DNA of 64,000 nucleotides from Enhydrobacter sp. GTDB lineage: Bacteria > Pseudomonadota > Alphaproteobacteria > Reyranellales > Reyranellaceae. The notes under the pieces were generated by a model. It was not told where the DNA came from. It did not search any database and worked only from the letters and a program-made list of their open reading frames with translations. The stretch is from assembly GCA_025808875.1 (NCBI GenBank), contig CP075528.1, forward strand, positions 4,028,473 to 4,092,472, given 5' to 3'. Made by a program: the position numbers and the translations under genes. Shown here in pieces: positions 9,347 to 14,619 of this stretch (positions within the stretch are counted from its first letter, which is position 1; each line of letters begins with the position of its first letter).

Positions 9347-9859
9347 TCAGAGCGCCTCGCCGCCGCGCGACATGGCGACGACGCCGGTGCGGCCGACCTC
9401 GACCAGGCCGAGCGACTGCATGAGCCCGATGAAGCTCTGCACCTTGTCGGTGGTGCCGGTGACTTCGAAGACGAAGGAATCGATCTTGGCGTCGATCACC
9501 TTGGCGCGGAACACGTCGGCGAGCCGCAGCGCCTCGACACGCTTGTCGCCGATGCTCCTGACCTTGACCAACGCCAGCTCGCGCTCGATGTGCGGTCCCT
9601 CCGAGGTGAGGTCCCTCACCTTGTGCACAGGAACCAGCCGGTCGAGCTGCGCCTTGATCTGCTCGATGATCATCGGCGTGCCGGTCGTCACGATGGTGAT
9701 GCGCGACAGGTTCTCCTTCGCATCGGTTTCGGCGACAGTGAGGCTCTCGATGTTGTAGCCGCGACCGGAGAACAGGCCGACCACCCGCGCCAGAATGCCG
9801 GGTTCGTTGTCGACCAGGACGGAGATGGTGTGGCTCGACGCCGCCTCGGGAGCGATCAC
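9347..9859 (-). CDS. ilvH: Acetolactate synthase small (regulatory) subunit
   Basis: Regulatory subunit of acetohydroxyacid synthase; it binds the catalytic IlvB subunit and gives valine feedback control. The 170 residues contain an N-terminal ACT domain (TISVLVDNEPGILARVVGLF, about residues 12-32) and the C-terminal ALS_ss_C domain. The start is a GTG at 9859 that overlaps the ilvB stop as GTGTGA, so coupling is tight. The frame stays open far upstream inside ilvB, but that extension is only a shadow of ilvB. It is followed one base later by the exporter gene. Confidence 0.95.
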   Translation of the reverse strand: MIAPEAASSHTISVLVDNEPGILARVVGLFSGRGYNIESLTVAETDAKENLSRITIVTTGTPMIIEQIKAQLDRLVPVHKVRDLTSEGPHIERELALVKVRSIGDKRVEALRLADVFRAKVIDAKIDSFVFEVTGTTDKVQSFIGLMQSLGLVEVGRTGVVAMSRGGEAL

Positions 9860-11625
9860 ACCAGCACCATGCCTTCCTCGGATACGGGCTTGGCGGCACG
9901 GTCGTCGGGGCCGAGCAGCATGTCGTAGTGCGCCGCCCCCGACGGGATCATCGGGAAGCAGTTCTCCGTTTTGTCGACGCCGACATCGACGATCACCGGC
10001 TTCTTGATGCGGATCATCTCCTCGATGACGCCGTCGATCTCGGAAGGCTTGTCCGTGCGCAGGCCGACCGCGCCGAACGCCTCGGCCAGCCGCACGAAAT
10101 CGGGCAGCGATTCCATATAGCTCTCGGAATAGCGGCCGCCATGCAGCAGTTCCTGCCACTGCCGCACCATGCCCATGTACTGGTTGTTGAGGATGAAGAT
10201 CTTCACCGGCAACCGGTACTGCGCCACGGTCGACAGTTCCTGGATGTTCATCATGATCGAGGCCTCGCCGGCGACGTCGATCACCAGCGCGTCGGGATGG
10301 GCGATCTGCACGCCCATCGCGGCGGGAAAGCCGTAACCCATGGTGCCGAGGCCACCCGAGGTCATCCAGCGGTTGGGCTGCTCGAACTTCAGGAACTGCG
10401 CCGCCCACATCTGGTGCTGGCCCACCTCGGTGGTGATGTAGTGGTCCTTGTCCTTGATGTGGTGATAGAGCCGCTCTAGGGCGTACTGCGGCTTGATCGT
10501 CTGCTTGTCCTGCGTGTAGGCGAGGCAGTTGCGGCCGCGCCATTCGTCGATCTGGGCCCACCACGCCTTCAGCGCTTTCTGGTCGATCCTGGGCTGGCGG
10601 CTCTTCCACAACTTGATCAGATCTTCCAGCGCCTGGCCGGCATCGCCCACGATTGGCAGGTCGACGCGCACGTTCTTGTTGATCGAGCTGCCGTCGATGT
10701 CGACGTGGATCTTCTTCGACCTGGGCGAGAATTCGGCGATCTTGCCGGTGATGCGATCGTCGAAGCGCGCACCGATGTTGATCAGCACGTCGCAATTGTA
10801 CATCGCGAGATTGGCCTCGTAGGTGCCGTGCATGCCGAGCATGCCGACGAATTGCCTGTCCGACGCGGGATACGACCCGAGTCCCATCAGGGTGTTGGTG
10901 ATGGGATAGCCGGTCATGCGCACGAACTGGGTCAGCAGCTTCGACGCGCGGGGGCCCGAATTGATCACGCCGCCGCCGGTGTAGAAGACCGGCCGCTTGG
11001 CCTTGGCGATCAGGTCGAATGCCTGCTCGATCCGCTTCGGGTCGGGCTTGGTCTGCGGTTTGTAGCTCTTGTGCTCGACCGGCTTCCTTGGGGCCGCGTA
11101 GTCGTGCTTGTTCATCAGCACGTCCTTGGGCAGATCGATCACCACCGGGCCGGGGCGACCCGAGCGCGCCACGTAGAAAGCCTCGTGCACCGTGCGCGAC
11201 AGGGCGTTGACCGACTTCACGAGATAATTGTGCTTGGTGCAGGGCCGCGTGATGCCCGTCGTGTCGGCTTCCTGAAAGGCGTCGTTGCCGATCAGATGGG
11301 TCGGCACCTGGCCCGTCAGACAGACGATGGGGATCGAATCCATCAGGGCGTCGGTGAGGCCGGTCACGGCATTGGTCGCGCCGGGGCCGGACGTCACCAG
11401 CACCACGCCGACCTTGCCGGTCGAGCGCGCGTAGCCTTCGGCGGCGTGCACGGCCGCCTGCTCGTGACGCACCAGGATGTGACGCAGCCGGTTCTGCTTG
11501 AAGATCGAATCGTAGATCGGAAGGACCGCGCCGCCGGGATAGCCGAAGACGACCTCGACTTCCTCGTCGATCAGGGCTTTCACCAGCAGATCGGCGCCAG
11601 TCGTGGCGGGCTCCTCGGGCTTCAT
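9856..11625 (-). CDS. ilvB: Acetolactate synthase large (catalytic) subunit
   Basis: ThDP- and FAD-dependent enzyme that makes acetolactate or acetohydroxybutyrate, the first common step of branched-chain amino acid synthesis. The 589 residues from ATG 11625 contain the N-terminal ThDP-binding domain with the active-site Glu in RHEQAAVHAAEGYAR, the FAD/central domain, and the C-terminal domain. I chose this start for its clear AGAAGGAG site; an upstream in-frame ATG would add 11 residues. The metal-binding motif reads GEASIMMN, with Glu where the usual motif has Asp (GDxS). First gene of ilvB-ilvH-lysE-ilvC. Confidence 0.97.
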   Translation of the reverse strand: MKPEEPATTGADLLVKALIDEEVEVVFGYPGGAVLPIYDSIFKQNRLRHILVRHEQAAVHAAEGYARSTGKVGVVLVTSGPGATNAVTGLTDALMDSIPIVCLTGQVPTHLIGNDAFQEADTTGITRPCTKHNYLVKSVNALSRTVHEAFYVARSGRPGPVVIDLPKDVLMNKHDYAAPRKPVEHKSYKPQTKPDPKRIEQAFDLIAKAKRPVFYTGGGVINSGPRASKLLTQFVRMTGYPITNTLMGLGSYPASDRQFVGMLGMHGTYEANLAMYNCDVLINIGARFDDRITGKIAEFSPRSKKIHVDIDGSSINKNVRVDLPIVGDAGQALEDLIKLWKSRQPRIDQKALKAWWAQIDEWRGRNCLAYTQDKQTIKPQYALERLYHHIKDKDHYITTEVGQHQMWAAQFLKFEQPNRWMTSGGLGTMGYGFPAAMGVQIAHPDALVIDVAGEASIMMNIQELSTVAQYRLPVKIFILNNQYMGMVRQWQELLHGGRYSESYMESLPDFVRLAEAFGAVGLRTDKPSEIDGVIEEMIRIKKPVIVDVGVDKTENCFPMIPSGAAHYDMLLGPDDRAAKPVSEEGMVLV

Positions 11626-11650
11626 GACACGGGTCTCCTTCTGACAAATG

Positions 11651-11677
11651 CGCCGCAAAACCCGGGGTTTTGCGGCG
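11651..11677 (-). promoter_or_regulatory. 12-bp perfect palindrome in the ilvB leader
   Basis: CGCCGCAAAACC and its exact complement flank a 3-nt loop. The element lies 25 nt upstream of the ilvB start codon, just before the ribosome site, at about the expected transcription start. It could be an operator or a 5' stem-loop in the mRNA. It lacks a T tract, so a simple attenuator terminator is less likely. Confidence 0.55.
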
Positions 11678-11682
11678 GGCGG

Positions 11683-11711
11683 AACCTAATGGCGGTATCC
11701 ACAGGGGTCAA
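11683..11711 (-). promoter_or_regulatory. Candidate ilvB promoter
   Basis: On the minus strand, TTGACC (11711-11706) and TAGGTT (11688-11683) are separated by 17 nt. The -35 is close to consensus and the -10 is weak. Transcription would begin near 11676, at the base of the leader palindrome. Prediction by eye only. Confidence 0.45.
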
Positions 11712-11755
11712 CCAAAAACGGCACGAAACGCAAAGTTTTAGACCTCTGAATTGGT

Positions 11756-11763
11756 CAAATATT
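11756..11763. repeat. Left 8-bp target site duplication of the IS
   Basis: CAAATATT directly abuts the left terminal repeat and is repeated exactly at 13711-13718. An 8-bp duplication is typical of the IS1595 superfamily. Confidence 0.93.
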
Positions 11764-11789
11764 GCGGATTATCCCGTTGACACAAGGTA
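11764..11789 (+). repeat. Left terminal inverted repeat of the IS
   Basis: Starts GCGGATTATCCC and pairs with the right repeat at 22 of 26 positions. Confidence 0.93.
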
Positions 11790-11831
11790 AGGCGCGGGCG
11801 TAGAAGTGCCTCAACACAAGGGATTGAGGCA

Positions 11832-12704
11832 ATGGAACGCTTCACGGTTAAGGATTTCTTTAAGCGGTTCCCTACCGATGAAGCGTGCCTTGAGGCCATC
11901 AAGGCGAAGCGCATGGGCGGGGAACGGATGACGTGCGCCAAGTGCGGCAGGGACGCTCGGTTCTATCGGATAGAGGGCCGTCGCGCTTATGCCTGCCAGT
12001 TTTGCGGCGACCATTTCTACCCGTGCGTGGGAACCCCCTTTGAGGATAGCCGCACGTCGCTCCAGACGTGGTTTTACGCCATGTACTTATTCACCACGAC
12101 GCGCCACGGCGTTCCGGCGAAGGAGCTGGAGCGCCAGCTTGGCGTCACCTACAAAACGGCCTGGCGCATCGCGCGCAAGCTCCGCGAACTCATGGGCAGC
12201 GAGACGGGCGGCGGCCTGCTGGGTGGCGACATCGAGATCGACGAAGCCTACTTCGGCGGTAACAAGCGCGACGGTACGCGTGGCCCCAGCTCGACCGGCA
12301 AGACGGTTCTGATCGGCATGAAAGAACGTGGCGGACGTGTTCGCGCGGTCAAATTGCCGGATGCACGTCAGGCTTCCATTCGCGGCGCCATCGAGGCGAA
12401 TGTCGCCAAGAAAGGCTCGCGCGTCATGACCGACCAACACCGCAGCTACAAGTTACTGCGGCAGGCCGGATGGAATCACGAGAGCGTCAACCACGGCATC
12501 TACGAGTATGTCCGCGGCGACGTGCACACGAATTCGATTGAGAACTTCTGGGGCCGGCTGAAGGCGTCGATCAACGGAACGCACATTCACGTCAGCGGGA
12601 AGTATCTCGGCGTCTATGCTGGCGAGTTCGCCTTTCGCGCTAGCCAGAGGCACGACCCCGTCGGGATGTTCGACCGGCTGCTTTCGGCTTCTTGCCGGGT
12701 TTAG
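11832..12704 (+). CDS. IS1595 family transposase
   Basis: DDE-type transposase of the ISXO2/IS1595 group, 290 residues, apparently intact. An N-terminal zinc ribbon is formed by Cys35-X2-Cys38 and Cys55-X2-Cys58. A short helical region, AKELERQLGVTYKTAWRIARK, resembling the family's HTH follows. The catalytic domain has Asp137 in IEIDEAYFGG, Asp201 in MTDQHRSY, and the third motif HTNSIENFWGRLK (Asn234/Glu237). In this superfamily the third acidic position is known to vary. It begins 68 bp inside the left end. Its 3' end overlaps a small antisense frame by 65 bp. Confidence 0.95.
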   Translation: MERFTVKDFFKRFPTDEACLEAIKAKRMGGERMTCAKCGRDARFYRIEGRRAYACQFCGDHFYPCVGTPFEDSRTSLQTWFYAMYLFTTTRHGVPAKELERQLGVTYKTAWRIARKLRELMGSETGGGLLGGDIEIDEAYFGGNKRDGTRGPSSTGKTVLIGMKERGGRVRAVKLPDARQASIRGAIEANVAKKGSRVMTDQHRSYKLLRQAGWNHESVNHGIYEYVRGDVHTNSIENFWGRLKASINGTHIHVSGKYLGVYAGEFAFRASQRHDPVGMFDRLLSASCRV

Positions 12705-12846
12705 ATGCTTTGCCCACCAACTTCCCGAAGGCGACTGGATCGGCCCCTTTGGGGTAGCGCTTGGTCTGTTCATCCACAAACTCCGAAAGCCGACCGCCCT
12801 TTTGGGCGTCGGCTAGCGTCAATCCGTCCTTCTTTTTCTTTGGCAT
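12640..12846 (-). CDS. Small basic hypothetical protein, possible IS passenger
   Basis: Open frame of 68 residues inside the IS, antisense to and overlapping the last 65 bp of the transposase. The product is strongly basic (MPKKKKDG start, Lys/Arg-rich tail), with a central segment LTLADAQKGGRLSEFVDEQ that has the look of a conserved small-protein motif. No membrane segment or known catalytic motif is visible. I see no good ribosome site. The function is unknown. It could be a passenger gene or a chance frame; the ordered N-terminal half slightly favours a real gene. Confidence 0.4.
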   Translation of the reverse strand: MPKKKKDGLTLADAQKGGRLSEFVDEQTKRYPKGADPVAFGKLVGKASKPGKKPKAAGRTSRRGRASG

Positions 12847-13045
12847 TTCGGATAGAACTCACCATGTGGTCAGCACGCCGTGGCCGCCGGGGTTATCCCC
12901 GACGACCACGAGCGGCCGAGCTGATGGAGCCCTAGCTAGTTGGGCAAGACGGCTCGCCACATGGGCATATCACCTTTCTCCCTGGTCGGGTCTGGTGGTT
13001 AGGCTCTAGGAGTTTTGAGGGTGGCCACCCTCGCTGCTCCCGGTG

Positions 13046-13070
13046 AACGGCCCCGTGCGGGGCCGTTTTT
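13046..13070 (+). terminator. Rho-independent terminator inside the IS
   Basis: A perfect 9-bp stem, AACGGCCCC / GGGGCCGTT, with loop GTGC runs straight into a T tract on the plus strand. It lies 342 bp after the transposase stop and 9 bp before the convergent passenger gene's stop. It would end rightward transcription within the element. Confidence 0.8.
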
Positions 13071-13078
13071 CGTGCGAC

Positions 13079-13504
13079 CTAGTCGGCCTTGTTACGCAAT
13101 CGGTAACTGCCGCCTCCAAGGCGCTCGAAATCGGTCGACCATTCGGTCAGAAACTTGGCGAGCGTCTGCATCGGATTGGTCTCAGTCCCCATGATGCCGA
13201 GTTCCTTCAGACGATTGAGCATGTCGAGTCGGTGGACGGTGCCGCCCCTTTCCTGGGCCAGCGAAACCGCCGCCTTGCGCGCACGCTCGAACTTTGTTTC
13301 TGCCCCCGGCGTGTACGCCGGACGCGGCGCACCGTTCGCGACCGGCGGGGCAGCGGCGAGAGCCGACACCTGGACAGGCGTGGTCCGCTCCCGAAGCCGC
13401 ACCCCAGGGGCGGGCGGGTAATGGAGGAGCAGCGCCCGAATCTTGGCGGCCTTAGCCTCCAGCTCGGCAAGCTCCTTCCTGAGAGTCGTGGGCACGTCGA
13501 TCAT
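13079..13504 (-). CDS. IS passenger protein: coiled coil plus winged-helix-like domain
   Basis: Leftward gene in the second half of the IS, 141 residues from the ATG at 13504. A GTG at 13552 would give 157. Neither start has a clear ribosome site. The N-terminus (LRKELAELEAKAAKIRALL) is a coiled coil, followed by a Pro/Ala-rich linker. The C-terminal 60 residues (GGTVHRLDMLNRLKELGIMG through FERLGGGSYRL) have the spacing of a HARE-HTH or similar winged helix, suggesting nucleic-acid binding. No nuclease or transposase motif is visible. It may regulate the element or be an unrelated passenger. Confidence 0.6.
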   Translation of the reverse strand: MIDVPTTLRKELAELEAKAAKIRALLLHYPPAPGVRLRERTTPVQVSALAAAPPVANGAPRPAYTPGAETKFERARKAAVSLAQERGGTVHRLDMLNRLKELGIMGTETNPMQTLAKFLTEWSTDFERLGGGSYRLRNKAD

Positions 13505-13683
13505 GGGGAGGAGCCTAGTGGAGTGGAGTTCCCTTGGCAAGAGCTGGACCACAGCACGTGGAGGGAATCTCGGGAATCTTTGTTCTCGTCGATGTTCTCA
13601 TCCCGGCGGGAAGCCGACGCCCTCCCAAAACGCCCGATTTCTACGGCGCCAATTTAGTCTTGAAGGCGTCGGGCTGATCGTCT

Positions 13684-14619
13684 CTACCCTGTCTCTAAGG
13701 GATAATCCGCCAAATATTTCTCAACCGAGGCCAAAGCTGCCGCTGAGCGGGGATCGACCACTAGATCTGGCGTGAGCTGATGCTTGAACCACGTCATCTG
13801 GCGTTTGGCATATTGCCGGGTGTGATCGATGGCGATCCGACGCACGTCGTCGAGCGACAACTCGCCCCGAAAATGGCGGAACAGCTCCGGCGCGCCATGC
13901 GCCTTCAGACCGGGCCAGCGTGGGTCGGGGTGTCGGTCGAACACGGCCCGCGCCTCGGTCAGCACGCCTTGTTCGAGCATCGCCTCGAACCGGCGCGCGA
14001 TGCGCTCGCGCAGCCACGCCCGGTCGGGCGACAGCAGCACCGTCGCGAAGCGCCAGGGCGCCACCTCTCCCTCCCCCGTCTGCCAATCGCTGAGCGGCCG
14101 GCCGGTCGTGGCGACCACCTCCCACGCCCGCACATGGCGCTGGCGATCACCGGGCTCGAGGCGCGCCACGATGGCCGGGTCGCGCTCGGCGAGACGCGCC
14201 CGAAAGGCCTCGGCGCCCATCGCCTGCCAGTCGGCGTTGGCCCGGTCGCGCGCACTCTCGGGGACCGGCGGGATGGTGGAGATGCCGCGCATCAGCGTGC
14301 GCAGATAGAGGCCGGAACCGCCGCACAGGATCGGCAGGCGGCCGTGCGCCAGGCAGGCATCGATCTCAGCCGCCGCGAGAGCGCGCCAACGCGCCGCCGA
14401 CAGCGTTTCGCCGAGCGGCAACACGCCGTACAGCACGTGCGGAGCGCGCGCGCGTTCGATCGCCGTGGGCTGCGCCGTCAGGATCGGAAAGGCGTCGTAG
14501 GTCTGCATGGCGTCGGCGTTGATCACCGTGCCGCGCCGCCGCCCGGCGAGGGCGAGCGCCAGCGCAGACTTGCCGCTCGCGGTCGGCCCGGCGATGACGA
14601 CGACGGAAGGCTTTTCCAT
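13684..14619 (-). CDS. miaA: tRNA dimethylallyltransferase MiaA, C-terminus rewritten by an IS
   Basis: Transfers a dimethylallyl group to N6 of A37 in tRNAs that read UNN codons. The 311 residues have the P-loop GPTASGKSALA at residue 11 and the usual MiaA fold, ending near MTWFKHQ and a variable tail. The last eight codons (ADYPLETG, then TAG) lie inside the IS terminal repeat. Before insertion the frame would have continued as TNSEV and stopped with TAA at 11738-11740, still visible on the far side of the element. Thus five native residues were replaced by eight. Because the extreme C-terminus is variable in this family, the enzyme probably still works. Confidence 0.95.
   Translation of the reverse strand: MEKPSVVVIAGPTASGKSALALALAGRRRGTVINADAMQTYDAFPILTAQPTAIERARAPHVLYGVLPLGETLSAARWRALAAAEIDACLAHGRLPILCGGSGLYLRTLMRGISTIPPVPESARDRANADWQAMGAEAFRARLAERDPAIVARLEPGDRQRHVRAWEVVATTGRPLSDWQTGEGEVAPWRFATVLLSPDRAWLRERIARRFEAMLEQGVLTEARAVFDRHPDPRWPGLKAHGAPELFRHFRGELSLDDVRRIAIDHTRQYAKRQMTWFKHQLTPDLVVDPRSAAALASVEKYLADYPLETG
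13685..13710 (-). repeat. Right terminal inverted repeat of the IS
   Basis: Reverse complement begins GCGGATTATCCC and matches the left end at 22 of 26 positions. It also encodes the last residues of MiaA. Confidence 0.93.
13711..13718. repeat. Right 8-bp target site duplication of the IS
   Basis: CAAATATT, identical to 11756-11763. In miaA it encodes part of the KYL residues just before the junction. Confidence 0.93.

Follow-up and report, generated by a model that had tools for sequence, protein, structure and literature searches.

An IS1595-family element at the 3′ end of miaA in Enhydrobacter sp. and its cargo-carrying relatives

The miaA-ilvB junction and the inserted element

The window analysed here, a stretch of 64,000 nucleotides from Enhydrobacter sp. 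(assembly GCA_025808875.1, contig CP075528.1, positions 4,028,473 to 4,092,472), contains the tRNA modification gene miaA and the acetolactate synthase gene ilvB on the minus strand, with a mobile element of 1,947 bp (11764-13710) lying between them (Table 1). The miaA product, which matches PF01715 (E=9e-71) and TIGR00174 (E=4e-62) and is 79% identical to its nearest relative, is encoded by a single gene in the host genome.

The element is flanked by exact 8-bp copies of CAAATATT, as had been proposed in the original prediction. Its inverted ends had also been described as intact, which holds for the first 12 bp, where the two are identical, and is looser further in, with 13/14 and 21/25 positions matching overall. 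The transposase is of the IS1595/ISXO2 type, matching PF12762 (E=3e-35), PF12760 (E=6e-8) and NF033547 (E=1e-57; 195 bits, cut-off 75), and a Pfam match spans positions 2-152 of the 153 in the domain. Judged by these matches, together with the terminal inverted repeats and 8-bp direct repeats of the IS1595 family, a layout that recurs in 30 related elements, the element is of a known kind and belongs to this family. It is present in a single copy; a search of the host genome for a second match to its transposase found none.

Table 1. Coordinates of the features at the miaA-ilvB junction (positions within the window)
Feature	Position	Strand	Details
ilvB (acetolactate synthase large subunit)	9856..11625	-	PF02776, PF00205, PF02775; ATG at 11625 aligns with relatives
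ilvB upstream region, intact	11626..11737	-	conserved block, promoter-like pair, CGCCGCAAAA/TTTTGCGGCG hairpin; conserved in relatives
Former last miaA codons (TNSEV, TAA)	11738..11755	-	outside present miaA; alignment with 29 relatives
Left 8-bp target duplication CAAATATT	11756..11763	.	exact duplicate of 13711-13718
Left inverted repeat	11764..11789	+	GCGGATTATCCCGTTGACACAAGGT; 12/12, then 21/25 match to right end
IS1595-family transposase	11832..12704	+	290 aa, uninterrupted; PF12762, PF12760, NF033547
Small ORF, 68 aa	12640..12846	-	convergent with and overlapping transposase 3′ end; profile searches
Candidate cargo ORF, 157 aa	13079..13552	-	no recognised family
Right inverted repeat	13685..13710	-	minus-strand bases 13710-13684 (27) encode ADYPLETG and TAG
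Right 8-bp target duplication CAAATATT	13711..13718	.	holds last host-encoded miaA codons
miaA (tRNA dimethylallyltransferase)	13684..14619	-	311 aa; last 8 residues IS-derived; PF01715, TIGR00174

In its present form the minus strand reads GAG AAA TAT TTG, then GCG GAT TAT CCC TTA GAG ACA GGG TAG, giving MiaA the ending EKYL-ADYPLETG with the stop codon at 13684-13686. Removal of the element and one copy of the duplication restores AAA TAT TTG ACC AAT TCA GAG GTC TAA, that is EKYL-TNSEV with the stop codon at 11738-11740. Five tail codons were thus exchanged for eight, and MiaA has 311 residues now against 308 before. The predicted restored frame and its TAA, the origin of the present C-terminus and stop codon in the IS end, and the net gain of three residues were all confirmed on the sequence. 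The word "replaces", which had been used for the last codons, fits the frame, which now ends in ADYPLETG, but not the DNA, as the old codons survive at a distance of 1.95 kb and, with 8 bp duplicated, no base was lost.

The conserved core of MiaA ends before this point. The IPPT domain occupies residues 39-281, the TIGR00174 match covers residues 6-283 and scores above its cut-off, and alignments to PDB homologues end at residue 279-289. PF01715 is matched over positions 1-243 of 243, making the IPP transferase core complete, and the stretch after residue ~283 is variable in relatives and lies beyond the known fold. On these alignments the new tail is outside the conserved enzyme core, which is untouched, and MiaA would be expected to stay active with it. 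The special significance given to the altered end was not upheld, the change being beyond the core, and the description of the enzyme as essential-type was overstated because miaA is dispensable in E. coli.

Element-free relatives and the region upstream of ilvB

The comparison covered 29 further miaA loci of the genus (L003-L031), taken from genomes other than the host's, and none of them contains the element. In all 29 the MiaA tail stops at the equivalent point with a YL(T/D)(N/K)-type ending (e.g. YLTKTEA, FLTNSEA, YLDNLDV), and none of them combines absence of the element with an ADYPLETG end or with loss of the TNSEV-like end. The sequence after the stop codon is closely similar throughout (AACTTT(A/G)CGTTTC-type), and ilvB, read in the same direction, follows at a distance of ~0.1 kb, in agreement with the proposal that the insertion moved miaA 1.95 kb away from a gene that it once closely preceded.

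Nearly all relatives keep a promoter-like pair between miaA and ilvB (TTGA(C/T)(C/T), 17 nt, TA(T/C/G)NTT-like), which in the window reads TTGACC-17-TAGGTT, and in nearly all of them, as in the window, an inverted repeat CGCCGCAAAA...TTTTGCGGC precedes the ilvB start; both features lie between the insertion and ilvB. A scan for consensus promoters and terminators returned nothing at its thresholds, the conserved TTGACC-17-TANNTT pair being seen by comparison, and an Rfam search for a known RNA element near miaA and ilvB gave no match. It is presumably from this pair that ilvB is transcribed, and since the whole conserved upstream region is kept, separation from miaA probably leaves ilvB joined to its promoter. 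Just downstream of the pair, the inverted repeat CGCCGCAAAA/TTTTGCGGCG (11651-11677, minus strand) is conserved in the genus, and paired A-T to C-G changes occur in it in L023 and L030.

A further conserved block of DNA (11715-11770, minus strand, AAATWWTTG...GTCTGAAACTTTACGTTTC) spans the last miaA codons and the intergenic start in L003-L031. The ilvB upstream block contains a GAAAC/GTTTC-type dyad in relatives, and the block at 11715-11770 has a GAAAC-N5-GTTTC dyad in most of them. Leu303 of MiaA is encoded by TTG in 29/29 relatives, against a TTG share of 9% among the other leucine codons of the gene, a count from relatives that are not independent and to which no probability is attached. 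The block runs on past the miaA stop codon, and the last miaA codons apparently are constrained as DNA rather than as protein. This conservation could plausibly reflect a cis-acting element ahead of ilvB, and the block is possibly an ilvB regulatory site. The insertion cuts the edge of this constrained block, and regulation might change, with the duplicated AATATTTG keeping the start of the block on the ilvB side.

Target sites and cargo of related elements

Besides the window's own element, 30 others whose transposases are related had their ends resolved, giving 31. Their 8-bp target duplications have a mean GC content of 26% in flanks with a mean of 62%, and 8-mers drawn at random from those flanks give 62% (SD 3%). 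When GC is taken over 48 bp, the miaA insertion site falls among the lowest 0.2% of values in the window. Two of the other elements lie exactly on host stop codons, adding five residues each to an acyltransferase (L068, SQLSP) and an amine oxidase-like protein (L099, SDISP), and because of these cases an IS-encoded C-terminus is a recurring outcome. An orientation suited to reading from the host gene into the cargo was considered and rejected, flanking genes on each side pointing toward the element in 14 cases and away in 16. In L088 a long flanking ORF, possibly spurious, reads through the right IS1595 end into the cargo frame for ~222 codons.

A small ORF convergent with the transposase is common to 21/31 resolved elements (e.g. 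L063, L068, L072, L077, L083, L087), overlaps the transposase 3′ end in all but one of the 21, and in most is about 57-83 aa long with the pattern LxxAxxxGRLxxF. The N-terminal part of the ORF, which is outside the transposase, was tested separately against a profile of seven members; it was matched in the held-out L063 copy (E=2e-11) and the window copy (1e-6), the others being weaker, or undetected when the non-transposase part is very short. The small ORF often adjoins or overlaps a cargo gene, and this gene varies between elements: when the longest non-transposase ORFs were compared, related cargo was seen in just two pairs, besides one element found twice in one genome. Recognisable cargo in related elements includes type IIG restriction-modification, IrrE-type peptidase, DUF7946/7947 and trypsin-like proteases that are PDC-S45-like and close to a defence candidate model (elements with recognisable cargo are L080, L103, L066, L074, L092, L087 and L097).

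Between its ends the window's element holds a candidate gene unrelated to transposition, the 157-aa ORF, where relatives hold clear cargo. This ORF has no Pfam, NCBIfam or PADLOC match and no relatives in the plasmids or 288 other genomes searched, and its single-sequence structure prediction is poor (mean pLDDT 61). A relationship to the L072 cargo was rejected as too weak (score 45 against 31 +/- 5 for shuffles, 24/1000 of which scored as high).

Passages of two papers (PMC3129680, PMC11891212) that cite Siguier, Gagnevin and Chandler (2009) give the name transporter IS (tIS) to IS1595-family members with passenger genes, among them ISNha5, which carries a regulator. The miaA element resembles tIS in its IS1595-type DDE domain and zinc ribbon, in its inverted ends and 8-bp duplications, and in having candidate ORFs between the ends that would not serve transposition. 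It differs in that its candidate cargo is an orphan ORF, in that identity to the closest transposases found does not exceed about 64%, and in the conserved small ORF, which is absent from the tIS passages; the accessible literature passages, from sources other than the founding paper, contained no description of such an ORF beside an IS1595 transposase. Together these elements could represent an undescribed IS1595 transporter group, in which a constant transposase, ends and antisense-overlapping small gene accompany interchangeable cargo that often lies just upstream of the small gene or overlaps it and is sometimes defence-like (restriction-modification, trypsin-like protease, IrrE-type peptidase). 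In such a group the small protein would have a conserved accessory role, perhaps in the regulation of transposition or of the cargo; the proposal is tentative, with slightly more doubt than confidence attached to it.

Origin and consequences of the insertion

The insertion at miaA is a genuine but ordinary event. Very probably it was a single chance insertion, in which a candidate cargo-carrying transporter IS of the IS1595 family would have transposed once into the AT-rich miaA 3′ end and duplicated 8 bp. On this reading it is by chance that the frame through the right inverted repeat runs eight codons to TAG, costing MiaA five tail residues and adding eight, and the ilvB-side copy of the duplication leaves the whole conserved upstream region in place. 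Since the MiaA core is untouched and that region is kept, the insertion is most likely near-neutral, and the element would have persisted by sparing both neighbours.

Selection of gene 3′ ends by the element itself, with IS-encoded C-termini as a favoured outcome, would give a similar picture. A called host stop codon is found within 25 bp of 10/31 elements, where random placement predicts 2, and in three cases the element is at or within the closing codons of a convincing gene. The gene calls in these proximity tests are heuristic, however, and the apparent excess disappeared when the control was limited to survivable positions (intergenic sequence and gene 3′ ends), 34% of which are equally close, against 9/20 observed, which is no clear excess. 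A preference of this kind was rejected on that control and is improbable as the cause of the miaA insertion. The position is explained by AT-rich target choice and the removal of harmful insertions.

Readings in which the insertion matters to its host fare slightly worse still. It could be adaptive if the altered MiaA tail, or the distance that now separates miaA from ilvB, changed enzyme activity or branched-chain amino-acid regulation, and its place within a conserved block reaching into the last miaA codons lends this some weight; yet the block is kept on the ilvB side from AATATTTG onward, the MiaA core is unchanged, and no spread or recurrence was found at the miaA site, which makes adaptation very unlikely. 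Equally hard to credit is damage that would make the strain a miaA hypomorph: the last eight MiaA residues are indeed foreign, but just five native residues were lost, from a tail that varies among relatives outside the known fold. The near-neutral chance insertion is accordingly preferred over all three.

Literature searches for proteins whose C-terminus comes from an IS, and for insertions of an IS into miaA, yielded nothing directly comparable. The insertion of ISAba1 in adeS, where the IS supplies an outward promoter and an N-terminally truncated protein results, with a strong phenotype (PMC3498117), is alike in that a host protein is altered by the end of an IS, whereas in miaA just the last five codons change.

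At this locus a housekeeping enzyme acquired its C-terminus from the end of a mobile element with no obvious damage, and 29 empty sites are available for comparison. The miaA insertion alone changes little. The data on the related elements show that AT-rich target choice and selection against disruption leave such elements at gene ends, and they draw attention to a small gene that is conserved in IS1595 elements with cargo.
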